Assembly (NCBI RefSeq): GCF_003086295.3
Contig: NC_092052.1
Location: 71,278,910 to 71,342,909, forward strand
Reading direction: 5' to 3'
DNA: 64,000 nt
Origin: Arachis hypogaea
Taxonomy: Eukaryota; Streptophyta; Magnoliopsida; Fabales; Fabaceae
Shown: positions 1,017 through 46,447 of the stretch, piece after piece
How positions within the stretch are numbered: position 1 is the stretch's first letter
Layout of the letters: every line of letters begins with the position of its first letter
Notes under the pieces: generated by a model
Database searches by the model: none
Told to the model about the DNA's origin: nothing
What the model saw: only the letters and a program-made list of their open reading frames with translations
Made by a program: the position numbers and the translations under genes

Positions 1017-1054
1017 TGCACCGAGGACGGTGTAATCTTCAAGTGTGGGGAGGT
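1017..1054 (+). promoter_or_regulatory. Internal hairpin plus polypurine-like tract (A left)
   Basis: Stem TGCACCG pairs with CGGTGTA (one G-U) around loop AGGA at 1017-1034. Three bases follow, then TTCAAGTGTGGGGAGGT (1038-1054). The last 14 bases, AAGTGTGGGGAGGT, are identical to the tract touching the LTR at 2582-2595, so the motif is duplicated about 1.5 kb inside the element. Elements C and B have counterparts. Confidence 0.7.
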
Positions 1055-2557: not shown

Positions 2558-2595
2558 TAGAATGAGAACATGGTATGGTTTAAGTGTGGGGAGGT
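2558..2595 (+). promoter_or_regulatory. Polypurine tract with decayed hairpin (A left)
   Basis: TTTAAGTGTGGGGAGGT (2579-2595) directly precedes the LTR and is the expected plus-strand primer. Upstream, TAGAATG-AGAA-CATGGTA (2558-2575) keeps the fold of the other copies with two mismatched pairs; the right copy at 46448-46465 is perfectly paired. Confidence 0.7.
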
Positions 2596-4267: not shown

Positions 4268-5532
4268 ATGAATTCTCACTTTGGCTATGAGTGTGATTAC
4301 AACTATGTTGTAGGAAATGGGAACTACAATGAAGATATGCATCAAGGATGGGATAACCAAAGGTGGGAGGAGCCATATGCATATGATCAATCTTCATGGC
4401 AACAACCTCCACCAATGCACTATGAACAAGAGCCATTCTATGATACATACCAATCCAATGGCTATGGTGAATCTCCTTGTGACTTTCAAGAACCACCACC
4501 ATATGCCTATGAACCATATCCACAACATAACCCTCAACCATACTGACAAGCCCCTTCTTACCAACCACCTTCTTATGACCCTAATCTATATCCACCATTC
4601 CAACAATCATATGAGTCATATGAACCACATATAGAGCCACCACCATTCCAACATCAACATTTTCAAGAGCTACCTCCTCCATACTATTACCATGATGAAC
4701 TACCTCCAATGTATGAAAATTTTCAACCACAAGATAAATACTACTTTCCACTACAACCTCCCATGGAAAAATACTCATGTCTATCGATCCAAGAGCCATA
4801 TGATCCTACTCATGATATCCAAGAGGAACAAGAGTCAAGGGATCGTCTCAAGGAAGCATTGGATCAATTTCAAGCAACTATGGAGCGTGTTGTGCAACAA
4901 GTGGAAAGAGTAGAAAGTATTGAACCACCACAACTCTACCAAGAGGAACCACCTTCCTACTATGAGTCCTTCCTTCAAAATGATGAACCCTTCCATCCAC
5001 CCCAACCTCCAATGGATGACATCCTTGATGTTCTTGTTCAAGGACAAGAGGAGATGAAAATGGATGTGCAACAATTCACAGCCACCTTGGACAAGGTGGT
5101 AAACCGGTTAGCATCCCGATGCTTGAACACTCAAGGAACTCCCATGGCTACATGTGGAGAACCTAATGAAGAGCGTAGCATAAAGGAGAGATTGGAAACT
5201 CCGGTGGAGAATGAGAGAAGTTGCTTTGTATTGGAACAATTGGAGGAAGCTTTAATTGTTGAAGACAAGGAAGAAGTGGTTGAAGACTTGGGAGATGCGG
5301 AACTACCTTGGGAACATAGAGTTGAAGAAAAACCCTCCAAGAAGATTGAACTTGATGCTAAGGAGGAATGTGCACAACCTCCAAGGCATATCCCTTATGA
5401 AGACTTGGATGGGATAGAGCAAGAATTGAGTTCCCGTGGGATTGAAGATTAAGCATCTAGTCTTAGTGGTGAAGAATCCTTTGAGCATGAAGAACCTTCT
5501 CCCGATGAGATGGAAAGCAATGTGGAGGTAAA
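4268..5532 (+). pseudogene. ORF1 of family A (left): orphan Tyr/Pro/Gln-rich protein, broken
   Basis: One frame from the ATG at 4268, interrupted by TGA (4544-4546) and TAA (5450-5452, where copy A2 has CAA), then cut by the junction at 5532. The first third is rich in Tyr, Pro, Gln, Asn and Met (repeated PPPYxY-like blocks); the middle is acidic and probably partly coiled. There is no CCHC knuckle, gag domain, protease or RT. It occupies the gag position just after primer-binding site and leader, so a capsid or RNA-binding role is possible but unproven. Homologues: 37054-43570 and minus strand 54679-56641. Confidence 0.75.
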
Positions 5533-11859: not shown

Positions 11860-11896
11860 TTTGCTCGAGGACGAGCAAACCTTTTAAGTTTGGTGT
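11860..11896 (+). promoter_or_regulatory. Internal hairpin plus TTTAAGTTTGGTGT (B forward)
   Basis: TTTGCTCG and CGAGCAAA form a perfect 8-bp stem around AGGA (11860-11879); TTTAAGTTTGGTGT follows at 11883-11896. The arrangement repeats, with a differently sequenced stem, just before the 3' LTR (14022-14059). Here it lies 55 bp before the ORF2 start, in its putative 5' leader. Confidence 0.75.
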
Positions 11897-14021: not shown

Positions 14022-14059
14022 GTTGCTTGGGGACAAGCAACAATTTAAGTTTGGTGTTG
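14022..14059 (+). promoter_or_regulatory. Pre-LTR hairpin and plus-strand primer region (B forward)
   Basis: GTTGCTTG and CAAGCAAC form a perfect 8-bp stem around GGGA (14022-14041), followed by AA and TTTAAGTTTGGTGTTG touching the LTR. Compared with the hairpin at 11860, two stem pairs changed on both sides (T-A to G-C, C-G to T-A). The tract is not purely purine, so the exact primer is uncertain. Confidence 0.75.
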
Positions 14060-16650: not shown

Positions 16651-16688
16651 CACACCAAACTTAAAAGGTTTGCTCGTCCTCGAGCAAA
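16651..16688 (-). promoter_or_regulatory. Internal hairpin plus tract (B1)
   Basis: On the minus strand TTTGCTCG-AGGA-CGAGCAAA (16669-16688) is perfectly paired and followed by CCT and TTTAAGTTTGGTGT. Confidence 0.75.
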
Positions 16689-17548: not shown

Positions 17549-19831
17549 TCACAGATACTCAGAGCATGATGATGGCCTCCCAACACCAAACTTAGAGTTT
17601 GAATTTGGGGGCTCTGTTTGACTCTGTATTGAAAGAAGCTTGGCATGCTTCTTCTTCATGTGTGTATAAGGAGATCTTTGAGCCTTAAACACAAGGCATG
17701 CCTCATTCACTTGAATGAGCAGCTCTCCTCTGTCAACATCAATCACAGCTTTTGCTGTGGCTAGGAAGGGTTTGCCAAGGACGATGGATTCATCCATAAT
17801 CTTCCCAGTGTCTAGGATTATGAAGACAGCAGAGATGTAGAGGCCTTCAACCTTTACCAAGACATCCTCTACAAGTCCATAAGCATGTTTCCTTGAATTT
17901 TCTGCCATCTCTAGTGAGATTCTTGCAGCTTTCACCTCAAAGATCCCTAGTTTCTCCATTACAGAGAGGGGCATGAGGTTTATACTTGACCCTAGGTCAC
18001 ACAGAGCCTTTTCAAAGGTCATGGTGCCTGTGGTATAGGGTATGAAGAATTTTCCGGGGTCCGGTTTCTTCTGAGGTAATTTCTACCTAACCAAGGTACT
18101 CAGTTCATTGATGAGCAATGGAGGTTCGTCCTCCCAAGTCTCGTTACCAAATAACTTGAGATTCAGCTTCTTGATTGCTCCAAGGTACTTAGCAACTTCC
18201 TCTTCAGTAATATCTTCATCCTCTTCAGAGGAAGAATACTCATCAGAGCTCATGAATGGCAGAAGTAGGTTCAATGGAATCTCTATGGTCTCTGTGTGAG
18301 CCTCAGATTCCTCTGGTTCCTCATTAGGGAACTCTTTGGAGGCTAGTGGACGTCCATTGAGGTCTTTCTCAGTGGATATCACTGCCTTTCTCTCCTCTAC
18401 AGGTTCGGCCATGTGGGACGTGTTTATGGCCTTGCACTCTCTTTTTGGATTTTCTTCTGTATTACTTGGGAGAGTACTAGGAGGGAGTTCAGTAACTTTC
18501 TTACTAAGCTGACCCACTTGTGCCTCCAAATTTCTAATGGAGGACCTTGTTTCAGTCATGAAACTTAGTGTGGTTTTAGATAGATCAAAGACTATGGCTG
18601 CTAAGCTAGAGAGACTCTGCTCAAAATTCTCTGTCTGTTGCTGAGAAGATGATGGAAAAGGTTTGCTATTGCTAAACCTGTTTCGTCCACCATTATTATT
18701 ATTGAAGCCTTGATTAGGCTTCTGTTGATCCTTCCATGAGAGGTTAGGATGATTCCTCCATGAAGGATTGTAAGTGTTTCCATAGAAATCTCCCATGTAA
18801 TTCACTTCTTCCATTCCACGATTCTCAGTGTCATAAGCTTCTTCTTCAGCAGAAGCTTCCTTAGTACTGCCTATTGCAGCTTGCATTTCAGACAGACTCT
18901 GAGAAATCATATTGACTTGCTGAGTCAATATTTTGTTCTAAGCTAATATGACATTCAGAGTATCAATCTCAAGAACTCCTTTCTTCTGAGTTGTCCCATT
19001 ATTCACAGGATTCCTTTCAGAAGTGTACATGAATTGGTTATTTGCAACCATTTCAATGAGTTCCTGGGCTTCTTCAGGCGTCTTTTTCAGATGAAGAGAT
19101 CCATCAGCAGAGTTGTCCAATGACATCTTGGACAATTCAGACAGACCATCATAGAATATGTATATGATGCTCCATTCTGAAAGCATGCCAGAAGGACACC
19201 TTCTGATCAATTGCTTGTATCTTTCCCAAGCTTCATAGAGGGATTCGCCTTCCTTCTGTCTGAAGATTTGGACTTCCACTCTAAGCTTACTCAATTTTTG
19301 AGGTGGAAAGAACTTTGAAAAGAAGGCATTGACCAGCTTTTCCCAAGAGTTCAAGCTTTCTTTAGGTTGTGAGTCCAACCATGTCCTAGCTCTGTCTCTT
19401 ACAGCAAAAGGGAAGAGCATAAGTTTGTAGACCTCAGGGTCAACCCCATGGGTCTTAACAGTGTCATAGATTTGCAAGAATTCAGCTAAAAACTGATGAG
19501 GATCTTCCAATAGAAGTCCATGATACTTGCAATTCTGCTACATTAGAGAAACTAATTGAGGTTTGAGCTCAAAGTTGTTTGCTCGAATTGCAGGGATTGA
19601 GATGCTTCTTCCACAGAAGTCAGAAGAAGGTGCAATGAAGTCACCAAGCATCTTCCTTGCATTGTTGGCATTGTTGTTATTTTCGGCTGCCATATCTTCT
19701 TATCTTTCGAAAATTTATGTTAGGTCCTCTCCAGAGAGTTATGCTTTAGCTTCTCTTAGCTTTCTCTTCAAGGTCCATTCAGATTCAGGATCAGCTTTAA
19801 CAAGAATACCTTTGTCCTTATTCTTGCTCAT
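17549..19831 (-). pseudogene. gag-protease of B1, nonsense-riddled but in one frame
   Basis: From the ATG at 19831 to the stop at 17549 the whole gag-protease lies in a single frame interrupted only by nonsense codons, at least six: several in the N-terminal 100 codons, one near 19540, TAG at 18938-18940 and at 18083-18085. The gag domain is within 18938-19510; the Asn-rich linker and acidic region within 18083-18928; the protease with DLGSSINLMP and GKPFLATA within 17549-18022. No CCHC knuckle, RT or integrase. Absence of frameshifts with many stops suggests decay mainly by point mutation. Confidence 0.88.
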
Positions 19832-21596: not shown

Positions 21597-23221
21597 TGGT
21601 ACACGAAATCGTGATCGCACACTTTTCACACAACTCCGTGCAGCAAACCAGCAAGTGCACTGGGTCGTCCAAGTAATACCTTACGTGAGTAAGGCTCGAT
21701 CCCACGGAGATTGTCAGCTTGAAGCAAGCTATGGTCATCCTTGTAAATATCAGTCAGGCGGATTCAAATGGTTATGGGATTTTGATAATTAAAATATAAT
21801 TAAAACAAAAAATAAGATAAAAATACTTATGTAATTCATTGGTAGGATTTCAGATAAGCGTATGGAGATGCTTATTACTTCTGAACCTCTGCTTTCCTAT
21901 TGCTTTCATCCAATCAGGCGTACTCCCTTCCATGGCAAACTGTATGTTGGGGGATCATCGTTGTCAATGGCTACCGTGCGTCCTCTCAGTGAAAATGGTC
22001 CAAATGCGCTGTCACCGCACGGCTAATCATCTGTCGGTTCTCACTCATGTTGGAATAGGATCCATTGATCCTTTTGCGTCTGTCACTACGCCCAACACTC
22101 GCGAGTTTAAAGCTCGTCACAGTCATCCCATCTCAGATCCTACTCGGAATACCACAGACAAGGTTTAGACTTTCCGGATCTCAAGAATGCTACCAATTGA
22201 TTCTAGCTTATACCACGAAGACTCCGATCTCGAGGCTAAGAGATATGCATTCAAGCTCGTTTTCATGTAGAATGGAAGTGGTTGTCAGGCACGCGTTCAT
22301 AGGTGAGAATGGTGATGAGTGTCACATAATCATCACATTCATCATGTTCTTGTGTGCGAATGAATATCTTAGAACAAGAATAAGCTTGAATCAGATAGAA
22401 AAACAGTAGTAATTGCATTAATTCATGAAAAACAGCAGAGCTCCACACCTTAATCTATGGGGTGTAGAATCTCCACCGTTGAAAATACATAAGAACAAGG
22501 TCCAGGCATGGCCAAATGGCCATCCCCCTAAACGTGATCAAGAGATCAAAAGTGATACAAAGATAGTCTCAAAAATGATCTGAAGATGAAAATACAATAG
22601 TAAAAGGTCCTATTTATAATGAACTAGTAACCTAGGGTTTACAGAAATGAGTAAATGATGCAGGAATCCACTTCCGGGCCCACTTGGTGTGTGCTTGGGC
22701 TGACCATTGAAGCTTTCACATGTAGAGACTTTTCTTGGAGTTGAACGCCAGCTCTGGTGACAGTTTGGGCGTTTAACTCCAGCTTTTATGCCAGTTCTGA
22801 CGTTTAACGCCAGAATAGGGTAGAAAGTGGGCGTTTAAACGCCAGTTTGCATTATTAAAACTCGGGCAAAGTATGGACTATTATATATTTCTGGAAAGCC
22901 CAGGATGTATACTTTCCAACGCAATTGAGAGCGTGCCAATTGAGCTTCTGTAGCTTGAGAAAATCCATTTCGAGTGCAGCAGGGACAGAATCCAACAGCA
23001 TCTGCAGTCCTTTTTCAGCCTCTGAATCAGATATTTGCTCAGGTCCCTCAATTTCAGCCAGAAAATACCTAAAATCATAGAAAAATACACAAACTCATAG
23101 TAAAGTCCAGAAATGTGATTTTTATTTAAAAACTAATAAAAATATATTAAAAATTAACTAAAACATACTAAAAACTATGTAAAAAACAATGCCAAAAAGC
23201 GTATAAATTATCCGCTCATCA
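21597..23221 (-). repeat. LTR of family B shared by B1 and B2, 1625 bp
   Basis: The minus strand starts TGATGAGCGG at 23221 and ends CGTGTACCA at 21597. TATAAATA is at 22611-22618, with palindrome motifs at about 22740-22850. It has a B2 tract on one side and a B1 primer-binding site on the other. Confidence 0.92.
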
Positions 23222-23259
23222 CAACACCAAACTTAAATTGTTGCTTGTCCCCAAGCAAC
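23222..23259 (-). promoter_or_regulatory. Pre-LTR hairpin and tract (B2)
   Basis: The minus strand has GTTGCTTG-GGGA-CAAGCAAC (23240-23259), a perfect 8-bp stem, then AA and TTTAAGTTTGGTGTTG to the LTR. Confidence 0.75.
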
Positions 23260-25506: not shown

Positions 25507-25544
25507 CACACCAAACTTAGAAGGTTTGCTCGTCCTCGAGCAAA
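25507..25544 (-). promoter_or_regulatory. Internal hairpin plus tract (B2)
   Basis: The minus strand has TTTGCTCG-AGGA-CGAGCAAA (25525-25544), perfectly paired, then CCT and TTCTAAGTTTGGTGT (one base unlike other copies). Confidence 0.72.
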
Positions 25545-26368: not shown

Positions 26369-28872
26369 TCACAGATACTCAGAGCATGATGATGGCCTCC
26401 CAACACCAAACTTAGAGTTTGAATGTGGGGGCTCTGTTTGACTCTGTATTGAGAGAAGCTTGTCATGCTTCTTCTCCATGTGTGCATAAGGAGATCCTTG
26501 TGCCTTAAACACAAGGCAGGCCTCATTTACTTGAATGACCAGCTCTCCTCTGTCAACATCAATCACAGCTTTTGTTGTGGCTAGGAAGGGTCTGCCAAGG
26601 ATGATGGATTCATCCATACTCTTCCTAGTGTCTAGGATTATGAAGTCAGCAGGATGTAGAGGCCTTCAACCTTTACCAAGACATCCTCTACAAGTCCATA
26701 AGCCTGTTTCCTTGAATTGTCTGCCATCTCTAGTGAGATTCTTGCAGCTTTCACCTCAATGATCCCTAGTTTCTCCATTATAGAGAGGGGCATGAGGTTT
26801 ATACTTGACCCTAGGTCACACAGAGCCTTTTCAAAGGTCATGGTGCCTATGGTACAGGGTATGAGGAATTTTTCGGGGTCTGGTTTCTTCTGAGGTAATT
26901 TCTGCCTAACCAAGGTACTCAGTTCATTGATGAGCAATGGAGGTTCATCCTCCCAAGTCTCATTACCAACTAACTTGGCATTCAGCTTCATGATTGCTCT
27001 AAGGTACTTAGCAACTTGCTCTTCAGCAATATCTTCATCCTCTTCAGAGGAAGAATATTCATCAGAGCTCATGAATGGCAGAAGTAGGTTCAATGGAATC
27101 TCTATAGTCTCTGTGTGAGCCTCAGATTCCTCTGGTTCCTCAATAGGGAATTCCTTGGAGGCCAATGGACGTCGATTGAGGTCTTCCTCAGTGGATATCA
27201 CTTCCTTTCCCTCCTTTACAGGTTCGGCCATGTGGGACGTGTTTATGGCCGTGCACTCTGATAAACCACTATTTTATGGTTTATCTTATGCTTAATTGAG
27301 TGGTTTTTATCAACTCTTTACCCATTTATTCATACTAATCGCATGCTTTATGTTTTCCTTCCTGATTTTGTGCTATGATTGAAAATATGCTTCTTTGGCC
27401 TTTATATTGCTAATATTAATCCTCTCTTATCACCATTAAATGCCTTGATATGTGTGTTAAGTGTTTTCAGAGATTACACTCTCTTTTTGGATTTTCTTCT
27501 GTATTGCTTGGGAGAGTACTAGGAGGGAGTTCAGTAATTTCTTACTCAGCTGACCCACTTGTGCCTCCAAATTTCTAATGAGGGACCTTGTTTCAGTCAT
27601 GAAACTTAGTGTAGTTTTAGATAGATCAGAGACTATGGCTGCTAAGCTAGAGAGACTCTGCTCAGAATTCTCTGTCTGTTGCTGAGAAGATGATGGAAAA
27701 GGTTTGCTATTGCTAAACCTGTTTCGTCTATCATTATTATTATTGAAGCCTTGATTAGGCTTCTGTTGATCCTTCCATGAGAGGTTAGGATGATTCCTAC
27801 ATGAAGGATTGTAAGTGTTTCCATAGGAATCTACCATGTAATTCACTTCTTCCATTCCAGGATTCTCAGGGTCATAAGCTTCTTCTTCAGCGGAAGCTTC
27901 CTTAGTACTGTCTGTTGCAGCTTGCATTCCAAACAGACTCTGATAAATCATATTGACTTGCTGAGTCAATATTTTGTTCTGAGCCAATATGGCATTCAGA
28001 GTATCAATCTCAAGAACTCCTTTCTTCTGAGTTGTCCCATTATTCACAGGATTTCATTCAGAAGTATACATGAATTGGTTATTTGCATCCATTTCAATGA
28101 GTTCCTGGGCTTCTTCAGGCATCTTCTTCAGATGAAGAGATCCACCAGTAGAGTTGTCCAATGACATCTTGGACAGTTCAGACAGACCATCATAGAATAT
28201 GCATATGATGCTCCATTCTGAAAGCATGCAAGAAGGACACCTTTTGATCAATTGCTTGTATCTTTCCCAAGCTTCATAGAGGGATTCGCCTTCCTTCTGT
28301 CTGAAGGTTTGGACTTCCACTCTAAGCTTACTCAATTTTTGAGGTGGAAAGAACTTTGCCAAGAAGGTATTGACCAGCTTTTCCCAAGAGTTCATGCTTT
28401 CTTTAGCTTGTGAGTCCAACCATGTGCTAGCTCTGTCTCTTACAGCAAAAGGGAAGAGCATAAGTTTGTAGACTTCAGGGTCAACCCCATGGGTCTTAAC
28501 AGTGTCACAGATTTGCAAGAATTCAGCTAAAAACTGATGAGGATCTTCTAATGGAAGTCCATAATACTTACAATTCTGCTGCATTAGAGAAACTAATTGA
28601 GGTTTAAGCTCAAAGTTGTTTGCTCGAATTGCAGGGATTGAGATGCTTCTTCCACAGAAGTCAAAAGAAGGTGCAATGAAGTCACCAAGCATCTTCCTTG
28701 CACTGTTGGAATTGTTGTTATTTTCGGCTGCCATGTCTTCTTCTCTTTCGAAAATTTCTGTTAGGTCCTCTCCAGAGAGTTGTGCTTTAGCTTCTCTTAG
28801 CTTTCTCTTCAAGGTCCTTTCAGGTTCAGGATCAGCTTCAACAAGAATGCCTTTATCCTTGTTCCTGCTCAT
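26369..28872 (-). pseudogene. gag-protease of B2, broken by frameshifts and a 218-bp insertion
   Basis: The first 272 codons (28872 to 28054) are clean: charged N-terminus, then the gag domain at residues 105-225 (DPHQFLAEF, TWLDSQ, YEAWERYKQ). A stop at 28054-28056 is followed by the same frame to a frameshift near 27540 (one base lost). An LTR-like insertion occupies 27259-27476. The acidic region and protease follow (27231 to 26638, with DLGSSINLMP); another frameshift near 26650 precedes the C-terminus (GRPFLATT, 26617 to 26369). No CCHC knuckle, RT or integrase. Confidence 0.88.
27259..27476 (+). mobile_element. 218-bp insertion like the start of LTR C, with CACTC duplication
   Basis: Begins TGATAAACCACTATTTTATGG, like the C LTR start, with a perfect 9-bp terminal inverted pair (27260-27285). 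It follows that LTR for about 215 bp and stops at GAGATTA. CACTC flanks both sides (27254-27258 and 27477-27481), while the uninterrupted site in B1 (about 18435) has it once. It has no CA end, so it is neither a full LTR nor an obvious fragment. Confidence 0.75.
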
Positions 28873-30562: not shown

Positions 30563-32183
30563 TGGTACATGAAATCGTAATCGCACACTTTTCACACAAC
30601 TCCGTACAGCTGACCAGCAAGTGCACTGGGTCGTCCAAGTAATACCTTACGTAAGGGTCGATCCCACAGAGATTGTCGGCTTGAAGCAAGCTATGGTCAT
30701 CCTTGTAAATCTCAATCAGGCGGATTCAAATGGTTATGGGATTTTGATAATTAAAATCATAATTAAAACAGAAAATAAGATAGAAATACTTATGTAATTC
30801 AATGGTAGGATTTCAGATAAGCGTATGGAGATGCTTATTGCTTCTGAACCTCTGTTTCCTATCGCTTTCATCCAATCAGGCGTACTCCCTTCCATGGCAA
30901 GCTGTATGTTGGGGGATCACCGTTGTCAATGGCTACCATGTGTCCTCTCAGTGAAAATGGTTCAAATGCACTGTCACCGCACGGCTAATCATCTGTCGAT
31001 TCTCACTCATGTTGGAATAAGATCTATTGATCCTTTTTGCGTCTGTCACTACGCCCAACACTCGCGAGTTTGAAGCTCGTCACAGTCATCCCATCCCAGA
31101 TGCTACTCGGAATACCACAGACAAAGTTTAGACTTTCCGGATCTCAAGAATGCTACTAATTGATTCTAGCTTATACCACGAAGACTCTGATCTCGAGGCT
31201 AAGAGATATGCATTCAATCTCATTTTTATATAGAACGGAAGTGGTTGTCAGGCACGCATTCATAGGTGAGAATGGTGATGAGTGTGACATAATCATCAAA
31301 TTCATCATGTTCGTGTATACGAATGAATATCTTAGAATAAGAATAAGCTTGAATTGGATAGAAAAATAGTGGTAATTGCATTAATTCATGATGAACAGCA
31401 TAGCTCCACACCTTAATCTAAGGGGTGTAGAAACTCCACCATTGAAAATACATAAGAACAAGGTCCGGGCTTGGCCGAATGGCCAGCCCCCTAAACGTGA
31501 TCAAGAGATCAAAAGTGATACCAAGATAGTCTCAAAAATGATCTAAAGATGAAAATACAATAGCAAGAGGTCCTATTTATAATGAACTAGTGACCTAAGG
31601 TTTACAGAAATAAGTAAATGATGTAGAAATCCACTTCCGGGCCCACTTGGTGTGTGCTTGGGCTGAGCATTGAAGCTTTCACATGAAGAGACTTTTCTTG
31701 GAGTTAAACGCCAGCTCTGGTGCCAGTTTGGGCGTTTAACTCCAGCTTTTATGCCAGTTCTGGGATTTAACGCCAGAATAGGATAGAAAGTGGGCGTTTA
31801 AACGCTAGTTTGCGTTATCAAAACTCAGGCAAAGTATGGACTATTATATATTTCTGGAAAGACCAGGATGTCTACTTTCCAACGCAATTAAGGGCACGCC
31901 AATTGGGCTTCTTCAGCTTGAAAAAATTCATTTCGAGTGTATCAGGGTCAGAATCCAACAGCATCTGCAGTCTTTTTTCAGCCTCTGGATCAGATTTTTT
32001 GCTCAGGTCCTTCAATTTCAGCCAGAAAATACCTGAAATTACAGAAAAACACAAACTCATAGTAAAGTCCAGAAATGTGATTTTTATTTAAAAAATAATA
32101 AAAATATATTAAAAATTAACTAAAACATACTAAAAACTATGTAAAAAACAATGCCAAAAAGCATATAAATTATCCACTCATCA
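30563..32183 (-). repeat. 5' LTR of B2, 1621 bp
   Basis: The minus strand starts TGATGAGTGG at 32183 and ends at 30563. TATAAATA is at 31574-31581, with GCGTTTAACGCC-type motifs at about 31700-31810. It is closely similar to 21597-23221. Confidence 0.9.
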
Positions 32184-35075: not shown

Positions 35076-35349
35076 TTGTTTCATAAAATTTTTTTTCTTC
35101 AAAACTAAGGTTCTTACCCTTAGCATAGCAACAAACCAACCCCAAATCATTCAAACAAGCACAATTTCATGGTCCACAAGTAATTTAACTCATTCAACTC
35201 AAAATTTTCAAACCAAACGTAAACTACTCATTATATCACAAGAAAGCAATTAATACAAAAAGCTATAAACAAAAGATAAAATTGAAATATGTTACCATGG
35301 TGGGGTGTCTCCCACCGAGCACATTGGTTTAGAGTCCTAAGTTGGACTT

Positions 35350-36893
35350 TGATAAACCCCATTTTTGGGGTTTATCTTGTGTTGAATTAGAGGGTTTTGT
35401 CAACTTTTCTCCTATGTATCCAATGAAATAGCATGGTTTTGTAACTTCTCCTTTAATTGTGCTTAAGAGTGAAAGCATGCTTTTTTGGTCTTAGAATAAA
35501 AATTTTTAATAAACCTTAATTCCATTATATGCCTTGATATGTTTGTTAAGTGATTTCAGATTTAGGAGGCAAAGATTGGATCAAGGGAATGAAGAAAAAG
35601 CATGTAAAAATGGAGAACTCATGAAGAAATGAAGGAATCGCAAAAGCTGTCAAGCCGACCTCTTTGCACTTAATCTACCATAACTTGAGCTACAAAGATC
35701 CAAATGATGCGATTCTAGTTGTATTGGAAAGCTAACATCCGGGGCTTCGAAATGATATAAGATTTGCAGTAGTTGCATAACGTTTAAGGGCAAGCACGCG
35801 CACTCTATGCGTATACGCCGATGGTTGCACATGATTCACTTAATGCAACTTGTGGCCAGCGATTTTAGAAGCCTTGTGGGCCCAATCCAACTCATTTATG
35901 ATTCTATTTAACCCAAGGAATAAAGAGGGATGGGACATATAGTTAGTTAGCGAGTTTTATTTTAGTTTTATCATGCTTTAGTTAGTTTCTAAAGAGAGAA
36001 GCACTCTCTTCTCTCTAGAATTAGGAGTAGGTTAGATCTAGATTAGGAATTCTTAGATCTAGGTTAATTTCATGCTTAGATTTACTTTTCCTTTATTAAT
36101 TCTTCTTCTTCTACATCTCTTCTCTCTAGTTTAGCATTTAATTCTTGTAATTTTCTACTTTTATGTTGATGCACTTTGTTCTTCCATTTTTCTTTAATGC
36201 AATTTATGATTCATGTTCTTTTATTGTTGATTTACTTTATTGTTGTTTAATTCCTTGCAATTGAGTAGTGTAGATTTACTTTTCTTGAAATTTTACTATG
36301 CTTTCCATTTATGCCTTCCAAGTGTTTGATAAAATGCTTGGTTGGATTTTAGAGTAGAATTTTATGTTCTTGGCTTGAGAAGGTAACTTAGGAACTCTTG
36401 ATTTACTAATGTTCAAGTAATTGATGATTGAGAGCCATTAACTCTTGATCTCACTAATTGAATTGGTGAAGAACTAGGACTTATGGACTTTGATTGATAT
36501 AGCTCATTTGACTTTCCTTTACTACTAGTTAGAAGATGACTTAATGGGATTGATCCTTGCCAATTCTCATGTTGTGGTTAGTGATTAGGATAGAGATCCT
36601 TGACCACCAAACCTTACCAAGACCTTTTTAGCTATTAGTTTACTTTCATTGCCATTTACTTTTCTTGTCTCTTATCCCAAAAACACCAAAATATCTCATA
36701 ACCAATAACAAGACACTTTATCGCAATTCTTAGGGAGAACGACCCGAGGTTCCAATACTTCGGTTTATAAATTTAGGGGTTTGTACTTGTGACAAACAAA
36801 AGTTTTGTATGAAAGGATTATTGTTTGGTTTAGAAATTATACTTGTAGCGAGAGTTTATTGTGAATTCCAAACAATCAAAAATCTGTTCATCA
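35350..36893 (+). repeat. 5' LTR of A2, 1544 bp
   Basis: Starts TGATAAACCCC and ends GTTCATCA. The start folds as GATAAACCCC with GGGGTTTATC (35351-35376), a 10-bp stem. It keeps the longer form TTGATTGATATAGCTCATTT (36489-36508) that the other two A LTRs lost and the related solo LTR D retains. Confidence 0.9.
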
Positions 36894-36896
36894 AAA

Positions 36897-36914
36897 TGGC
36901 GCCGTTGCCGGGGA
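36897..36914 (+). promoter_or_regulatory. Primer-binding site, tRNA-Asp, perfect (A2)
   Basis: TGGCGCCGTTGCCGGGGA, three bases after the LTR. Confidence 0.9.
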
Positions 36915-38420
36915 ATTACAATGGTGTTGTGTTATTGGTTATTGTATATATGTGAATAGTGTGAATATGTTTACTTTTGTTAGTTCTTGCTAGTTTTTGG
37001 ATTTGGTTTTCTTTGTCTCTTATTTGATTTTATTTTCCTTTCCTCTTGCCATCATGAATTCTCACTTTGGCTATGAGTGTGATTACAACTATCTTGTAGG
37101 AAATGGGAGCTACAATGAAGATATGCATCAAGGATGGGATAACCAAAGGTGGGAGGAGCCATATACATATGATCAATCTTCATGGCAACAACCTCCACCA
37201 ATGCACTATGAACAAGAGCCATTCTATGATGCATACCAATCTAATGGCTATGGTGAATCTCCTTGTGACTTTCAAGAACCACCACCATATGCCTATGAAC
37301 CTTATCCACAACATAACACTCAACCATACTCACAAGCCCCTTCTTACTAACCACCTTCATATGACCCTAATCCATATCTACCATTCCAACAATCGTATGA
37401 GCCATATGAACCACATATAGAGCCACCACCATTCCAACATCAACATTTTCAAGAGCTACCTCCTACATACTATTACCAAGATGAACCACCTCCAATGTAT
37501 GAAAATTTTTAACCACAAGATGAATACTACTTTCCACCACAACCTCCCATGGAAAAATACTCATGTTTATCGATCCAAGAGCCATATGATCCTACTCATG
37601 ATATCCCAGAGAAACAAGAGTCAAGAGATCGTCTCAAGAAGCATTGGGTCAATTTCAAGCAACCATGGAGCATGTTGTGCAACAAGTGGAAATAGTGGAA
37701 AGTATTAAACCACCACAACTCTACCAAGAGGAACCACCTTCCTACTATGAGTCCTTCCTTCAAAATGATGAACCCTTTCATCCATCCCAACCTCCAATAA
37801 ATGACATCCTTGATGTTCTTGTTCAAGGACAAGAGGAGATGAAAAGGGATGTGCAACAATTCACGGCCACCTTGGACGAGGTGGTAAACCGGTTAGCATC
37901 CCAATGCTTGAACACTCAAGGAACTCCCATGGCTACATGTGGTGAACCTAATGAAGAGCATAGCATGAAAGAGAGATTGGAAACTCTGGTGGAGAATGAG
38001 GGAAGTTGCTTTGTATTGGAACAATTGGAGGAAGCTTTAATTGTTGAAGACAAGGAAGAAGTGGTTGAAGACTTGGGAGATGCGGAACTACTTTGGGAAC
38101 ATAGAGTTGAAGAAAACCCCTCCAAGAAGATTGAACTTGATGCTAAGGAGGAATGTGCACAACCTCCAAGGCATATCCCTTATGAAGACTTGGATGGGAT
38201 AGAGCAAGAATTGAGTTCCCGTGGGATTGAAGATCAAGCATCTAGTCTTAGTGGTGAAGAATCTTTTGAGCATGAAGAACGTTCTCTCGATAAGATGGAA
38301 AGCAATGTGGAGGTAAATTTCTCTCACCTTCCCATTTATGATTTGAATAAGGGAAAAGGCTTAGATAGAATTGATGCACAAAGGATTGAAATTAACACTA
38401 CAAGAAAAATACCCATTCAG

Positions 38421-38660
38421 CCACACTTTTTTTAAGCTACATTTAAAAAGCGTAGCCTATTCTATGAATAGGTTACGCTTTTCTCCGTGTTGCCTATTTA
38501 TAAGAAAAAAGGATACACAATTGTGGCATCATTTAAAAAGTGTAGCCTTAGGTATTATAGAAATCACTTATAAAGCGTAGCCGTAGGTTAATATCTATAG
38601 TTCACTTTTCGTATCAAAGAGGACGCTTTTAGAAGGTAGCCTATTTATTAAGTTTTGGGT
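38421..38660. repeat. Left subterminal repeats of the CACTA element
   Basis: Several AAAAGCGTAGCC-like motifs in both orientations (first at 38445-38457). Such motifs are usual transposase binding sites in this superfamily. Confidence 0.8.
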
Positions 38661-38839
38661 GCATTTTAAAAGTGATGCCTAATGTATCTAGAGCCAAATA
38701 CAGCCACGACACTTAGTAATTTTTTCTCCTTATCACTAAATCATTCACGTTCGAGCACCCTCACTTTTGCCATCAGATCAGAGAAAAATTTCACCACCTC
38801 ACCTTCGCAACTCAACTTCCAATTAATTGTTCAAAACCC

Positions 38840-39440
38840 TAACTCTAACTCACCTTCGCCATGCACCCTTTCCCACACACACACCCAGATCCGAGAGAAT
38901 GAGTGAACCAGAGGGAGGAGAGGAGGAAGACAGAGATGAGAGCGCGAGCAAGAGACTAGAGAGTGAGAGGGGGTCACCGTGTAACGCCGCTGCAGCCGCC
39001 GCCATCGCCATCGTGGAGGAGGGAGTCCGAAGGAGAGAGAGAGAAAGTATATTCACAGACGAGATGGAGACAGAGGACGAAGACGCGACACGAGAGAGAA
39101 GGAGGCTGTTCCGCTGTGCACGGTCGTCGCTCCTAGGGTCAATTGAAGCCGCCGCCGCTGCTAGGGCTTGCCATGCTCCTGTCCTCACTTTTGGCTTCTA
39201 CAATTACTTCCTGTTCGTACTCCCAACCTCTCTCTCTCTCCAACTTTCATTTCATTCTCATTTCAATTTCAATTTCGATGTCTCTGCAGGCGTTTCATCG
39301 GTGCCGTTTTCGACGCCAAGGGTGCGGATGCAATTCTCTCCTTTGAAAAGTTCTGCTGCAATCTCCCCAGACCTCTTCTTCAGGTTCCGATTTCTATTTG
39401 GATTAGTTTTCTCAATCCGATTTTGATCCATCTGCTAATT
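38840..39440 (+). other. GC-rich exon-like cargo of the CACTA element
   Basis: Much richer in G+C than its surroundings and resembling a plant 5' UTR and first exon: CCGCCGCC runs, CT-repeat stretches, open frames in more than one phase. Positions 39290-39381 look like an exon between CTCTGCAG and GTTCCGAT splice signals, with a frame containing [21 protein letters not shown] do not recognise the gene; coding status is uncertain. Confidence 0.45.
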
Positions 39441-39579
39441 AATTGGGTTGATTAATACTAGATCATATATCTCGCCATAATTAGTTCAACATATTATTTC
39501 ATTGTAAAATCGTGTTTAACAGATCATATATGATTAATGTGAATGAAGAACACTAGGTTGAGTTGAATTAAATTGAATC

Positions 39580-40034
39580 ATGGATAAAAGCATGCTAGCT
39601 GGTTTGGAATCACTTCCAGAAGCTTATCAGCAAAGAATGGCGTCCATGATGGAACAAGTTCAAATCCGTGACAGGTACCTCCTCTTCACTCTATGAGACA
39701 ACTTGTGCTAATTTTCTTGCAAGATAACTTTGCAGCCATGTTGTGCTAATTTATGAGACAAGCGTATTAGAGGGTTCACATGCCCTTGTGCTGGAAATGA
39801 AATAACTGGAACATGTTTGAGCTTCATCTTTTCTTGTGTTTTTTATTCTGAGACTTTTTGGGGGGTGGGGGTTGCTTATTCTGACTTTTATTCCTATCAT
39901 TTCTCTCTAACTGGAACATGAAAGAGATTGAATGGTGGATTGTCAAAGTATACTTTGGACTAGTGAGAATTGAGAAATGCATTTTGATTTAATCTTTTAT
40001 TTGGTGTGATTGGCAGTCTTGGAAAACGTAGTAT
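39580..40034 (+). pseudogene. TIM9: Captured TIM9 fragment: exon 1, intron 1, start of exon 2
   Basis: From the ATG at 39580, 31 codons match the N-terminus of plant TIM9, the small Tim chaperone of the mitochondrial intermembrane space: Met-Asp-x-Ser-Met, AGL, LPE, RMASM and QIRD. The exon ends at 39674 with GT at 39675-39676. An intron of about 340 bp ends in CAG at 40014-40016; joining there gives Ser-Leu, as in TIM9, then the sequence diverges and stops (TGA at 40036). The twin CX3C motifs, downstream in real TIM9, are missing, so this cannot make a working protein. The retained intron shows capture from DNA, not from mRNA. Confidence 0.8.
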
Positions 40035-41542
40035 TTGATGAGCATTCCCGAGAGTTTGATTGCTCAGACAAATCAGTTACAGGTACATAAATTTTATTTT
40101 TAAGATGAATTTAGCATATACTAATCCAGTGTTTTAGTTTGACCACGTTTCTGATTATGCAATGATTTTGGATAGTTCCAATTAAGTGGCTGAGTATATC
40201 ACAAGATGATGACTTATGTTGTGACTCAGTCATACAACAACATGGAGTTTTGACTTATTGTTTACATGATTTTAAAACAAGTTCTTGATAACTTAAATTA
40301 AAAACTAATCTATAAAAGTGCAAGGTCAACTCATATAAAATAACCTCAATGTTGCTGACATAAACCTCCTGTCATCTGGTAAGGATAAGGATAGTATTGA
40401 ATAGAGACCCAAATGTTTGTCCAAGAAAAATGTTGATGTCTACAAAGGAATTGAATAAAGACAAACATTCTTACTGCAAACTATTTTATAGATGAATTTG
40501 AACATATGAAGAACTTATTTATTTATTTTTATTTTTACTTCTTTCAGTCATCTGATTATAGAAACATCACAAGAAGTCAGTGCTCACCGCCTCACCCACC
40601 CAGCCTCTACCATCATCTTCTATCTGCTTCTCGCTGCTCACCCAGCACCACCAGTCCACCAGCGTCTGCTATCTTCGTCACCGCTCCTCTGTTACGCAGC
40701 CGCTGAGCCGTGAACTCCATCGCCGCTTCCTTCTTCCCCTGGCCCATGAACACCCTTAACTTACACCACGAGGACCACGACTCGCCTTTTGCCTTCTTCG
40801 ATTCTTCCTGCTGCTCGTCTGCCCTGTGCTATCCGGTTTTGCCTTAATTTCTACCTTCTTTTAAGTTGTCTTTTTTTTTCTGCCCCATTTTGTTGTTTTG
40901 CCCTTGTCTCTTGAATGATTTAATTGCTGCTGCTGCTGCTGCTAGGTCCTAATTTTGTTTGATTATATCAATTTAATTCTTGCTAAATGATGATTGTGTT
41001 GAATTTGTGGTTAAATGGTTGCATATGGCAATTACAATTTTTTTGTCTGTAATTTTTACAGTTATTTTGCTTCTGTTAGCTTATTTGGTTTAGTTGTTTG
41101 AGCTAGTAGCAGTGTTGTGCTAGCTATTGAGAATGCTTTTGTTCACCAGATGTTTGATGAAATGTGTCAGTATTGTTTAAGTAAATGGATGTGAATTTGA
41201 TCAGCTACTCTGTGTAACCTTTTGTACTGTAAAGTAAGAAAAATGATTAAATAGAAAAATTCAAATTCAAAGGCTTGGTAATATTTTCCTAGACTTTGAT
41301 TATATTTTGTGTTTTATTGTTAATGATTCATTAAGCATGCTGCAAATAAATAGGAGGAAGAAGAGTTAAAAAATTAAATAAGAAGAGTTAAATTAGTCTT
41401 TTGATCGGATATCTTGATTGATATTACTGTGAGATTAACACTAGGGGAATTGTCATGATTGGCCTCCTATTAATAATTTGATTTCCAATTAAGGCTATGT
41501 TTAGAAAGGAGAGTTTTAGAGGGACAAGGGTTTTCATTTTCA

Positions 41543-41601
<59 letters not shown>

Positions 41602-42585
41602 GCACTTGCTCAAGTGGTTGGTTTACATTACGTTACACTTTGTTAATTCAAGTGGTTCAATATTTATTTACCTTAAACAAAATCCCATGTATGAGTGTGA
41701 CAGATTGTTTTATTATTATTTATTATTATTAAAAAAACACCTGGTATTTTGGGAGCTTTCCCCTGTAGTTAAGCCAGACTTGACTCAAACAACATTTTAG
41801 AGACTAATGGCTTATATTATAACTTTCTAACTTCAAAAAAAAGAACTATGTACATTCCCTTCAAAGCCTACCATTCAAACATAAGTAGTTCTTGCATGAT
41901 GGAGTTCCAAATTATAGTTTTAAATTGCTACAATCACACAATTGCAATTGCTACCATAATATTACAGTTTTAACAACCATAGCAAATCATATAGATAGAT
42001 AGATAGATAGATGAACAGGATTAGGCAGTATACCAGAGGGGCATAGTAACTGGCAGACAAGGGAGCATACTGTATGCAATCACATGGAACCCATAATATG
42101 ATTTTGCGCAATTCTTATCGCAATCATAGGTTATGCTTTTTTTATTTTTGAATTCTAAATTTGGATTTGTGAAACACTACTATGCATTGGTGAAACTTGT
42201 ACACTATATAGAAAGAATTAATGATATTAGTCATTGATAGTTTTGAGTTTATTTTTTTAATTTTTATAATTGCGGATGTCATTATGAATATTTTTCTAAC
42301 TACTTTTTTATATAATTATACAGGATAATAACGAAGATTAAGCTGATTATTATTGTGGTTTATTGGCTAAGATAGAGTAGTGTTGGGAATGGATACATGT
42401 ATGGTTGACTAATGACTTTTATTAGAAGATACTTATGTAGGATATCTTATTTGTAGAGCATTAGTAATAACTTCTAAGTGGTATTATGGTTATTTTGATA
42501 TGGCTATGCTTACTTTAGTGTGAGATGTATGAATTTTTACAATTAACTTCATTCTAGTATTTTTGATATGGCTACACTTATATAC
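40035..42585. other. CACTA interior, noncoding with microsatellites
   Basis: AT-rich DNA with a less AT-rich, CT-rich block at 40575-40870 that looks like another UTR-derived piece, a TGC repeat (40925-40942), (TA)n at 41549-41597 and (ATAG)n at 41991-42012. No gene recognised. Confidence 0.6.
41549..41597. repeat. (TA)n microsatellite
   Basis: 49 bases of uninterrupted alternating T and A. Confidence 0.95.
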
Positions 42586-42974
42586 AGTAGCTATAGTATA
42601 CAAAAAAAAAAAACGAGACCTAAGGCTACATTTATATACAGTAGTTATAGTATACAAAAAAAACGAGGGACCTAAGGCTACGCTTATAAAAAGTAGCTAT
42701 GGTATACAATGTGGCTACACTTTACAAGTGATACAGTAGCGTTGAAAAGCGTAGCCTATTCTGGAAAAATGAAAGCTGAAAAGCGTTGCCTTTGGTCCTA
42801 GACAGCATCACTTGAAAAGCGTAGCCTATTCCCAAACGCCAAAAGCATAGCCCTTGGTGCAGAAAAGCGTAGCCTTTGAGAATAGGCAACGGCTGAATAG
42901 GAATCACCCAAAAAGCGTAGCCATAGCCTAAGGCATCATTATTTTTCACTTTTGGCTACACTTTTCAAGTGTAC
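42586..42974. repeat. Right subterminal repeats of the CACTA element
   Basis: At least six GAAAAGCGTAGCC-type motifs plus GGCTACACTTTT-type reverse forms, and a partial tandem duplication of TACAGTAGCTATAGTATACAAAAAAAA near 42580-42660. Confidence 0.8.
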
Positions 42975-43570
42975 CTGAATGGGTGTTTTTCTTGTAGTGT
43001 AAGAGATCTTGTGAAGAGGTGGAAATCCCTAGAAATAGAAGGACGGGGGTTGGTTATGCTTTGTCAAGATCCTTAGATGCTTCTTTGCCTAGATTGCCAT
43101 CTACACCTTCATTTGAGTGGGTGAAATTCATTTCTATTAGATTTATTATCCCACTTGAATATGGTTTGCTTGAAATGGATGGCTAACTTAGGAAACTTTG
43201 TGGGATGAAGCGTAAGCGAAAAAGGTTTTGTGGTTGGCGTTGCAAATCAAGGCTCATTTTGGTTGATATATCAAACATGAAATACAAAGGCTGGAGTAGT
43301 GCTAAACTAGATGGGTCTAGAAGGATTGTTGGTCACTTTATCGAGAATTCATCTTGCTTACCACCGAAATGGAATAATGATGATCAACTTGAAGATGGGT
43401 GTAGCAACAAGATATGGGATCCGGGAATACATGAGGATCAATTTTGGGAGCCTATAATCTATGAAGAACTCCATCAAAGCTTGGAAAAATTGAACTTGAA
43501 GAATGGATTTTATTGGAAATGCAAGCATTGGTGGGTGTTCAAGGATGGTTTCAAGCACGAGCCACCTTGA

Positions 43571-43833
43571 TGGAGCTCCCCATAAATCCAACTTAAGGAC
43601 AATAAACAAAAGTTCTAGGTGGGAGACACCCCACCATGGTAAATTCTTTTCATTTTTCTCTTTTGTAAATATTGGTAGAATAGGTTTGATTTCATGTTTT
43701 GTTTTGTTTGTTGAGTTATTTGGTAGTTTGGTATGTTAAATAAGGTTTTAGGGTGTTTTGGTAGCTGTTTGGAGGTTTAGAAGGCTTGGTTTGGTGCAAG
43801 AACTAGGAAAAATTTTGAAAAACAGAGTACTAA
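43571..43833 (+). other. Spacer after A2 ORF1
   Basis: Contains GGTGGGAGACACCCCACCATGG (43618-43639), a conserved, largely self-complementary word also in fragment E. Otherwise AT-rich and noncoding. Confidence 0.6.
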
Positions 43834-44245
43834 CCCACGCGTGTGCGCACCTGGCGCGTACGCGTAACCCAAGCATTTTTGACCATCCACGCACACGCGT
43901 ACATGGCACGTACGCGTGGATGCAAAAATTCCATCCCCAGCCAAAATCCCGAGAGTTAGGCCTGCACTATGCGAACATTGGGCCTCATGCACAAACCAAC
44001 CCGCGCGTACGCGCACCTGGCGCGTACACGTTCATGTTCCCAAATGCGCAATGCACGCGTATGCACGTTGTGCGCGCGCGCATCGATAGCGCCACCTACC
44101 CTCCTGGTACATTTTCCAGAGAGCTGGGCCAACCCTGAGCTGACACTGTGCCCTGCGCCTAATCCCACCCACGCGTGCGCGTACGCGCCCTTCGGCCAAA
44201 CTGCACATCGGCGCGTAAGCGTGCATGACGCGTCCGCGCTGGTAA
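43834..44245 (+). repeat. CpG-rich palindrome array of A2
   Basis: ACGCGT, CGCGTACGCG and GGCGCGTACGCG units, nearly identical to 1-345 where they overlap. It lies between ORF1 and the ORF2 stub. Confidence 0.82.
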
Positions 44246-44771
44246 AAAAAATAGTTTTTTTCCTCCTCTTCCATTTTCTTTTGTTTATCGCATTCGTATA
44301 CTTCTATTCTTTGCATTTCAATTTTGTTTTTATAGCTTGTTTTCATTTTATTTTCTAAGTTTCTCATTTTAATAATGGTGTTGCATTTTCCTACTAAATT
44401 GTTGAGAATTTCTTGCATTATTTTGGTGCTTCTTAACTTGTTTGATATTGATGGGTGATGAAACTTTTAAATCAATGCTTCATCTTTTATGACTCTTGTA
44501 TCCCTTGTGCATTGATATGAGCTCATATTGTTTTTTCATGATCCACTTTTTCTTATTTTGAACTTGATGCTCAATATGCTCTTCTTGCTTTGACTTTACT
44601 CTTGCATCAAGCTCAATGATATGCCTTGGCTTACATTGTTTTCTCACTCACATGTTGTAGCTACCATGTAGTAGAGAACTTTACTCTTATTTGGCATTAG
44701 CCCCCGCCTATGTTCTATTTGCTTTGATATCTTTGTTGTAGGCTTAATTCTCTTTCTTTTTCTTTCCTTTT
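44246..44771 (+). other. A2 spacer with candidate splice acceptor
   Basis: AT-rich, ending in a pyrimidine tract before AG at 44772-44773, directly ahead of the ORF2 stub. Confidence 0.5.
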
Positions 44772-44773
44772 AG

Positions 44774-44895
44774 GTTGGCCACCAAGAAAGGAGGAAAAGG
44801 AAAAGCTTCGAAATGGAGCAACAAACAAGTCATCCATCAACCTTTTGAAGAAGCTCATCAGTTGTAGCAACCCGTCCACCTTGCTCTTCTTTGCA
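44774..44895 (+). pseudogene. ORF2 stub of A2, start codon lost
   Basis: Same as the left copy: TTGGCCACCAAG in place of ATGGCCACCAAG, a short basic stretch, then stops. Confidence 0.45.
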
Positions 44896-44933
44896 TGCAC
44901 CGAGGACGGTGTAATCTTCAAGTGTGGGGAGGT
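44896..44933 (+). promoter_or_regulatory. Internal hairpin plus polypurine-like tract (A2)
   Basis: TGCACCG-AGGA-CGGTGTA (44896-44913), then ATC and TTCAAGTGTGGGGAGGT (44917-44933). Right after it GGTCGTCCGACC could form a second small stem. Confidence 0.7.
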
Positions 44934-46447
44934 CGTCCGACCAATCTCCATGGGTAACAATTCCCTTTTTAACACCAATTCTTAGTTTTCTTTGTTAGAT
45001 TAGTTATTGCATTGCATGATAGTTGCATGCTAGTTAGAATTTGTACATATTTTTACCACTTCTTTCTTATTAGGACTACTTGGTTAGGGTAATGATTTCC
45101 TTCCAAGAAATTAAGATTTTTGGCAACCCAACCAATTTAAAATTTTTGTTGAACTTGCTTGTAAGGATTTATTTTGGAACATGGTTTTTGATCTAAGAAC
45201 ACAAGCTTGTGAGGTTTGAGCCTAATAGTGTGGTTACATCTTATAACCACTTATTTTTCCTTCTTGTGTGCATTATTCTCTTTCTATGATTGTAATCTTT
45301 GATTTGTTTGATTCTTTATGTCCATTATTTTGTGTATTCATGCATTTATATGATTGAAGCCATCATTTCATTTAGCTCACTTACCCAAATAGCCTACCTT
45401 TTATCAACCTTTGCTAGCCAACTTTGAGCCTACAATTAACCCACTTTGTTCTTTAATTTAGCACATTACAAGCCTTAAAGCGAAAAACAATAAACGTCCT
45501 TAATTTGGATCTTTGATTAGCTTAGGCTAGTGTGAGTGTGTATAATTCAAGTGTGGGAAAACTTGGGACATTAGTTGGGATAAAAGGGTGTATTGTATTG
45601 TTGTTGGTAATATTGGGAATTGGGTACATGCTCATGTGTTAATTAAATGTAAAACCATATGCATTGATACTTTTGTATATACTTTATTGCAAAAAAAAAA
45701 AATGAGAAAATAAAAAGAAAAAAAAATATATGTAGATATCAAAAGAAAAAGAAAAAAAATAGAAAGAAAAGAAAAAAGAAAAGAAAAGTAATAAAAAGTG
45801 GACCAAATGCCCCAAGTGAAGCTCAATAATAATCAATGCATATGTGTTGTAATTAAGAAAAAAATGCATGAGTATGTGAAAAAAGTGAAGAATGGGTAGT
45901 TAGGTTTGTTTAGAATTGTATAGATTGCTATATAGGTTAGGTGGAAAGTTTAAGGTAATCAAATATTCAAATTTCAAGTCCACTTGACCAAATATGCATC
46001 CTTACCTTGACCCTAGCCCCATTACAACCAATGAAAAGACCTCATGATAAATGTATGCATGCATTGAATAATTGTTTATTTGTTAGATGAAAAACAAATC
46101 TTGGAAAGCATGATTAGGGGAGAATTGAGAGAATCGACCTTATACACTTGAGCGACTAGAGTGCAAACACTTCCGGTGAGGGTTCGATGCTCAATTCCTT
46201 GATTCCCGGCTTTCATGAGCGTTCTTCTTGCAAGTCTACTTGAACTTCATTTTTATACTTAAATTGGTAGGATTCATCAGTCGTCATATGACCTTAGCCC
46301 TACCCGTTTATACATGCTCTTGGAGGATTGATTTATTTTTAACCAAGTAGGTAGAATCATTTTGTATTTAGTTGCATTTATTTAGATAGGATGCATATAG
46401 ATAGGTTGCATTGAATAAATGTCATACCCCTTGTTTCATTCTTGGTT
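44934..46447 (+). other. A2 3' noncoding region
   Basis: Collinear with 1055-2557, including an A/G-rich stretch at 45690-45800. No gene. Confidence 0.7.

Follow-up and report, generated by a model that had tools for sequence, protein, structure and literature searches.

Extra and structured polypurine tracts (PPTs) have been described in several retroelement groups. Athila4 and Calypso are reported to carry one extra PPT in the linker (PMC2829016, citing Wright and Voytas 2002). Diaspora, a soybean element of the Athila clade, has its PPT adjoining the 3' long terminal repeat (LTR), 128 bp past the pol stop, and shares with Calypso, of the same clade, a tRNA-Asp primer binding site (PBS; PMC1142308). 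As summarized in PMC2829016, Sireviruses (Ty1/copia) have multiple PPTs and a conserved inverted repeat at the PPT/3' LTR junction, for which primer definition by ribonuclease H (RNase H) was proposed, and Ty1 has an internal second plus-strand start in its coding domain. In lentiviruses the central PPT (cPPT) and the PPT have a common conserved RNA structure near the cut, and an involvement of reverse transcriptase (RT) pausing and RNase H was suggested (PMC4439019). We analysed a 64-kb window of the peanut genome (NC_092052.1, 71278910-71342909; "window" denotes this whole stretch), most of which is made up of nested LTR elements of three families, A, B and C. These carry a small hairpin upstream of a PPT-like motif. 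The hairpin is real, common and selected. We read the module, at a probability of roughly 0.6, as a plus-strand priming signal in two parts, of which an Athila-type Ty3 element usually has two copies.

The peanut elements resemble Athila4 and Calypso in having a PBS of what we take to be the lineage type and a second PPT-like motif, and Diaspora in the presumed tRNA-Asp type of that PBS and in a PPT-like motif next to the 3' LTR. Unlike Athila4 and Calypso as described, they have a covarying hairpin at fixed spacing at both motif copies; Diaspora as described lacks a coding linker, and its account, as far as covered, does not mention a hairpin. Conserved pairing placed precisely relative to a PPT-like motif before the LTR recalls the Sireviruses. 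Sirevirus arms, however, are reported to flank the PPT, with the right arm in the LTR, a mean length of 28 bp and a conserved sequence, and their upstream PPTs are described without the repeat, whereas in peanut the motif follows both arms, the sequence of the stem, about 6-8 bp long, changes and the internal copy has the hairpin too. The peanut hairpin has no Sirevirus-type arms astride the PPT, and a further junction-spanning repeat was not searched for. In contrast to the structure described for the lentiviral cPPT and PPT, the peanut helix is a separate hairpin upstream of the tract, and Ty1, from another superfamily, is described without a hairpin module. Extra PPTs in Athila-type elements and PPT structures in Sireviruses and lentiviruses were already known; the upstream covarying hairpin at both motif copies appears to be new. 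The open-access literature, covered in part, yielded no account of Athila-type elements with a hairpin preceding each of their two PPTs. A preliminary description of this DNA had known of no earlier report, which holds for this hairpin within that literature but not for related PPT structures, which are published (PMC2829016, PMC4439019).

Each module consists of a stem of about 6-8 bp, an RGRA loop with a G-C closing pair, 11-13 nt, and then AAGTKTGGKG. The preliminary description had reported seven hairpins before 3' LTRs, and all seven were found at their positions:

14022-14041, forward strand: 3' hairpin of B1 (apparently FIDEL-related), GTTGCTTG-GGGA-CAAGCAAC, fully paired
14047-14059, forward strand: PPT-like motif AAGTTTGGTGTTG of B1, adjoining the LTR that starts at 14060
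23240-23259, reverse strand: 3' hairpin of B2, stem GTTGCTTG/CAAGCAAC; motif from 23234 down to 23222, LTR from 23221
60791-60810, forward strand: 3' hairpin of B4, one mismatch; PPT-like motif 60816-60828, LTR from 60829
46448-46465, forward strand: 3' hairpin of A2, TAGCATG-AGAA-CATGCTA; PPT-like AAGTGTGGGGAGGT at 46472-46485, LTR from 46486
2558-2575, forward strand: 3' hairpin of A1, decayed, two mismatches; PPT-like motif 2582-2595, LTR from 2596
50450-50469, reverse strand: 3' hairpin of C, TTAGCATG-AGGA-CATGCTAA, in which the TAGCATG/CATGCTA stem lengthens to 8 bp; motif from 50444 down to 50431, LTR from 50430
51946-51963, reverse strand: 3' hairpin of a second C-like 3' end, TAGCATG/CATGCTA; PPT-like motif from 51939 down to 51926

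The claims of full pairing in all but two copies (five of seven) and of GGGA, AGGA or AGAA loops closed by G-C were likewise borne out. The motif does not touch the LTR as had been stated; the LTR (TGATGAGCGG or TGATAAACC) begins 13-14 nt past the first A of AAGT. Nor is the hairpin, although present before the 3' LTR as described, exclusive to that position: beyond these seven, seven internal motif copies in the window carry it where no LTR follows:

11860-11879, forward strand: internal hairpin of B1, TTTGCTCG-AGGA-CGAGCAAA; motif AAGTTTGGTGT from 11886
58578-58597, forward strand: internal hairpin of B4, one G-U pair; motif from 58604
25525-25544, reverse strand: internal hairpin of B2; motif from 25518 downwards
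16669-16688, reverse strand: internal hairpin of B3; motif from 16662 downwards
1017-1034, forward strand: internal hairpin of A1, TGCACCG-AGGA-CGGTGTA; motif AAGTGTGGGGAGG from 1041
44896-44913, forward strand: internal hairpin of A2; motif from 44920
53719-53736, reverse strand: internal hairpin of C, TGCACCG-AGGA-CGGTGCA; motif from 53712 downwards

The internal stems are TTTGCTCG/CGAGCAAA in B and TGCACCG/CGGTGYA in A and C, followed by AAGTTTGGTGT or AAGTGTGGGGAGG. Because the hairpin also precedes an internal motif at similar spacing and with no LTR, it does not belong to the 3' LTR specifically. The second AAGTKTGGKG with its upstream hairpin is a candidate additional linker PPT, judged by motif alone.

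At each of the 27 AAGTKTGGK sites of the window we looked 2-10 nt upstream for a 4-nt loop carried by 7 or more pairs, G-U pairs included. Such a stem was found at 6/7 3'-LTR sites, 7/7 internal sites and 0/13 other sites, compared with 2.2% of window positions by chance. At three B 3' sites the scan chose a longer competing G-U helix, and 60791 passes solely through that helix; RNAfold returned the reported hairpin for 14022 and 23240. RNAfold z-scores for ten 91-nt segments ranged from -0.52 to -3.75 and are not decisive alone. A relaxed, loop-first scan of the window gave 17 G-C-closed purine-tetraloop hairpins with at least 6 pairs, 12 of them modules, and missed both mismatched modules. 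A covariance model placed exactly the 14 window modules on top (E 1.8e-7 to 0.046; next match 0.13), a ranking that is partly circular in that 11/80 training rows come from the window. Further AAGTTTGGTGT copies that lack the hairpin occur in B at 7390, 7581 and 10927 (forward) and at 21052, 20860, 17593, 30129, 29942 and 26413 (reverse). Two such copies lie in the 5' region of B, followed by CTTGCAT or CAATTGCATG, in the three longer B copies.

Selection on the pairing was assessed in 168 modules (14 in the window plus those of 150 genome loci), which reduce to 80 distinct 26-mers. Stem pairing was not a criterion of collection, but one set of loci was found by similarity to a hairpin-bearing query; 18 motif sites (12 in the window) were left out, fewer than 5/6 letters fitting GRGRAC 10-14 nt before the motif. 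Across the 80 distinct copies 88.0% of pair cells pair, above the 56.9% of the shuffled controls that had been proposed as a yardstick, and structures slid along the alignment pair in 22-45% of cells. Two-sided cells numbered 222 versus 86.9 after shuffling, and the covariation score was 0.742 versus 0.218 shuffled and 0.085-0.201 slid. Neither the count of pairs that change on both sides (7) nor that of additional pair types (22) exceeded the shuffles. Pair types along the stem were C-G/U-A/G-C, U-A/C-G/A-U, C-G/A-U, G-C/C-G, G-C/U-A/A-U and U-A/A-U/G-C. One stem pair, for example, is C-G in 34 of the 80 copies, U-A in 34, G-C in 6 and U-G in 2, with three other mispairs and one unlisted.

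Covariation in a larger alignment, set beforehand as the test, was present. In place of R-scape we used an R-scape-like test of our own, built on a FastTree tree inferred from those 26 columns and on per-column parsimony changes (200 runs). The summed score of the eight stem pairs was 49.5, compared with a null mean of 0.7 and a maximum of 16.3 over the 200 tree-based simulations. Among single pairs, 9-16 reached E 0.015, 4-21 E 0.035 and 5-20 E 0.085, the remaining five lying at or above 0.72; several non-stem column pairs scored high, none with E<0.05. The signal persisted in subsets: 49.8 versus a null maximum of 20.2 after removal of the loci from the hairpin-bearing query (71 distinct), 23.9 versus 8.5 for motif+LTR-anchored loci alone (30 distinct), 20.3 versus 9.7 for loop+motif-anchored loci alone (37 distinct) and 28.4 versus 10.3 for internal modules alone. 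Compensatory change, claimed earlier for three families, extends to more stem families than that and stands above the tree-based null. These numbers make it scarcely credible that a single ancestral hairpin was simply inherited across families with no function. The families are related, their stems have a common GC core and some non-stem column pairs score high, as such inheritance would have it; yet under a null that preserves the tree and the changes per column the maximum is 16.3 where 49.5 was observed, and 8.5 where the loci with motif and LTR start score 23.9.

Pattern searches covered the 2.56-Gb peanut genome, and the match counts are of copies, not of independent events. Loop and motif together (GRGGACN{9,16}AAGTKTGGKG, the stem being outside the criterion) matched 123,560 times versus 23 for the reversed pattern, and motif plus LTR start (AAGTKTGGKGN{2,8}TGATRA) 75,963 times versus 162. 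The patterns GAGGACBN{5,17}AAGTNTGGGG and GAGGACAVN{4,16}AAGTNTGGGG gave 18,213 versus 21 and 1,136 versus 0 matches. The stem was examined at the first 70 motif+LTR-start places listed, which lie early on one chromosome (52 distinct). Of these, 64/70 have 6 or more pairs enclosing a loop of 3-6 nt that closes 8-17 nt ahead of the motif (window chance 12.4%); under a narrower criterion, a 4-nt loop closing 11-13 nt ahead of it, 61/70 do (window chance 1.5%). The six misses of the wider criterion comprise one non-LTR site (L165), two junctions preceded by foreign sequence (L179, L247) and three stems that single changes disrupt (L172, L224, L244). The module is common to families with different LTR starts.

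Comparisons of the elements were confined to Arachis; five of six PF20167 relatives carry Arachis names, with A. hypogaea and A. ipaensis among them. A tighter loop+motif pattern had 6 matches in a prokaryote collection of 257 billion bases, with stems of 1-3 pairs, and 0 matches in IMG/VR; the loop+motif requirement does not itself generate a stem. In IMG/VR the loop+motif pattern matched at least 120 loci; at three of those listed the stem reached 5 pairs or more (8, 5 and 5, with spacers of 6, 12 and 18 nt), and these we took as chance. The gag protein had no relative in IMG/VR.

Two modules per element are common. Among the first 100 genome loop+motif places listed, 70 fall into same-strand pairs 996-3058 bp apart; these 35 pairs compare with 1.2 expected and a maximum of 6 in 1000 trials under uniform placement, again with the stem outside the criterion. 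True placement is denser past 12 Mb, and the stretch below 12 Mb holds 18 pairs among its 49 places. One listed place, 13624940, looks unlike a module.

Spacing to the motif is the steadiest property of the module. Among the genome matches listed, GRGGAC and AAGT are separated by 11-13 nt (14 nt in one case), although the patterns allowed 6-18 or 9-16 nt. With our own filter of 10-14 nt, this spacer is 12 nt in 95/103 3' modules and 12 or 13 nt in 63/65 internal ones. The loop C lies 25-26 nt from the LTR in 98/103 collected 3' modules, and the hairpin foot 18 nt from it in 66/103; B copies dominate this set. The distance from hairpin to motif is kept also where no LTR follows, and this steadiness, with or without an LTR, is our main ground for favouring priming over packaging or integration. 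Hairpins bound by proteins typically combine a conserved purine loop with a free stem sequence. A packaging or nucleocapsid-binding signal of that kind, in which a helper Gag reads the purine tetraloop, non-autonomous RNAs enter particles and two copies add avidity, would suit both traits, and the seemingly non-autonomous elements of the window would require one. It leaves the tie to AAGTKTGGKG and the position before the 3' LTR unexplained, and we regard it as unlikely. Of the roles offered in the preliminary description, presenting the primer or stopping RT fits the tie to the motif best, whereas packaging gained no specific support.

The plus-strand priming reading draws on the hairpin, the selected paired changes, the spacing of the tract, the two kinds of position and the absence of the hairpin at other motif copies in the window. 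Part one would be the hairpin and part two the primer-like AAGTKTGGKG tract 11-13 nt past its loop. The tract would act as the actual plus-strand primer, and the pairing would operate in genomic RNA. Minus-strand RT, having just copied the tract, would pause at the hairpin foot with its RNase H above either the tract or the border between PPT and U3, in most copies 18 nt behind the foot, and RNase H so placed would cut the primer end correctly. The internal module would be a second start site, like the lentiviral central PPT or Ty1 PPT2. RNase H cutting is reported to rise where RT pauses at hairpins (PMC3187697), 5'-end-directed RNase H cuts are placed 13-19 nt in from the RNA end (PMC3185654) and the Ty3 PPT is described as located in a base-paired region (PMC11381356). 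More tentatively, the hairpin might be a built-in ruler, an RT stop that sets the RNase H cut at the right base twice per element, which non-autonomous families retain to suit the enzyme of their helper. If so, it would be a distinct, largely sequence-independent form of plus-strand primer definition, present perhaps a hundred thousand times in a single crop genome. The exact choice of the plus-strand primer end by RT is still debated, and with a free stem sequence, fixed spacing and many natural copies, covariation and simple biochemistry can test what structure contributes. The module also offers a practical way to recognize where Athila-type elements, enzyme-less ones included, have their 3' ends and second primer sites.

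Several points weigh against this reading. The active sites of Ty3 RT are reported to be separated by just ~13 bp (PMC5371799), so that the cut would fall within the tract and not at the border, and the same source gives no central PPT as known in Ty3. The B motif is purine in part only. The distance from foot to LTR ranges from 17 to 26 nt, since stem lengths differ; the loop-to-motif distance is steadier. The B 3' hairpin is moderately favoured (mean probability 0.69), and because 13 AAGTKTGGK sites of the window lack such a hairpin, the motif is not always accompanied by one. The 3'-LTR modules alone score 13.8 versus 10.3 with no single pair at E<0.05 (37 distinct, effective number 6.5), and the strong covariation result therefore needs the internal modules too. 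Finally, G-U cells (16) are about as numerous as A-C cells (at least 13), a balance that does not speak for RNA rather than DNA. Strand polarity had been sought in the same two counts, which show no asymmetry. Pair changes cannot separate RNA from DNA, and a small inverted repeat acting in the complementary DNA (integration, nuclear steps or the flap) or in chromatin could also account for them. We think such a DNA-level role improbable, the internal copies being distant from the ends processed by integrase and the position tracking the primer-like motif.

Some internal modules overlap coding sequence. At genome loci L210 and L191 the PF20167 open reading frame (ORF) reads through the internal hairpin and ends at a TAA within TTTTAAGT; of five PF20167 relatives fetched, one (85% identical) ends in TEDRAKF, two in TEDGAKP and two otherwise. 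Coding may constrain some loop letters at internal sites, and does not at 3' modules. A translation signal at the ORF end, affecting the stop, reinitiation or RNA stability, would accord with these shared endings (3/5 relatives), but is largely refuted by the non-coding 3' modules, whose usual 12-nt spacing gives no in-frame TAA. In B, moreover, the PF20167 domain sits downstream of the internal module. Paired changes would also go unexplained, such as a synonymous third-position change in a Thr codon (ACC/ACG) that goes with a first-position change in a codon further on (GGT/CGT) in L184 and L210, and we hold a translational role to be very improbable. The TEDRAKF and TEDGAKP C-termini of some PF20167 ORFs correspond to codons at the internal hairpin, and in L210 (130-1521) the ORF stop is a TAA overlapping the primer-like motif; proteins P0001, P0003 and P0005 are concerned.

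The 25 nt before most hairpins are pyrimidine-rich, at a mean of 0.80 in 65 3' and 0.74 in 58 internal distinct segments versus 0.50 for the window. A lower stem between this upstream tract and the PPT-like tract, seen with RNAfold in several A and C copies, was discarded. Its pairing was 0.58 versus 0.56 with shuffled upstream letters, and 21/38 representatives exceeded their own shuffled mean, two of them clearly; because shuffled letters pair about equally, we attribute it to composition. A splice acceptor was also rejected: TTTTCAG or TTTAG precedes some 3' stems, and neither precedes the internal stems inspected.

The host elements share a PBS, TGGCGCCGTTGCCGGGGA or a near copy, which is present in A, B and C a few bases past the 5' LTR. 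We take it to be of tRNA-Asp type. PBS sites and primer matches are as follows:

36897-36914, forward strand: PBS of element A2, match to TGGCGCCGTTGCCGGGGA or a near copy
4112 and 6920, forward strand, and 21590, 30556 and 57133, reverse strand: further PBS sites, match to TGGCGCCGTTGCCGGGGA or a near copy
22738-22924, 31701-31887 and 61125-61310: FIDEL412 primer pairs in B LTRs

Both FIDEL412 primers (PMC3496627) match these three B LTRs, each with 1-3 mismatches, and are oriented towards each other at a distance of 186-187 bp; the amplicon is stated as 183 in that paper. Judged from these matches, the B elements appear related to FIDEL. The coding content of B comprises gag, a protease match under the Pfam cut-off and PF20167 ("putative plant transposon protein"), ORFs of which are present in these elements. 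ORF pieces of A and C gave no domain above cut-off; a weak DUF2205 match lies at 4547-5449 (A/C pieces). The 29 distinct window ORF pieces scanned, which did not include every short piece, showed no RT or integrase domain. From their coding content the A, B and C elements look non-autonomous, and since the scanned pieces contain no such domain, they probably rely on borrowed enzymes that read their cis signals.

A near-complete-looking A element of about 12.8 kb spans 35349-48161 (forward), with a 5' LTR, the PBS at 36897 and the modules at 44896 and 46448; its 3' LTR is interrupted at 48161 by B-like sequence. The LTR at 21900-23221 (reverse) seems common to two consecutive B elements, as 3' LTR of B2 and 5' LTR of B3, a pattern as expected after unequal recombination. 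The second C-like 3' end, at 51925-51964 (reverse), consists of hairpin, motif and LTR start and lies between the internal and 3' modules of C. Two Rfam snoR71 matches barely over the cut-off (42.8 and 40.8 versus 40) occur at 19185-19288 and 28226-28329 (forward), both within B copies and on the strand opposite to the elements.
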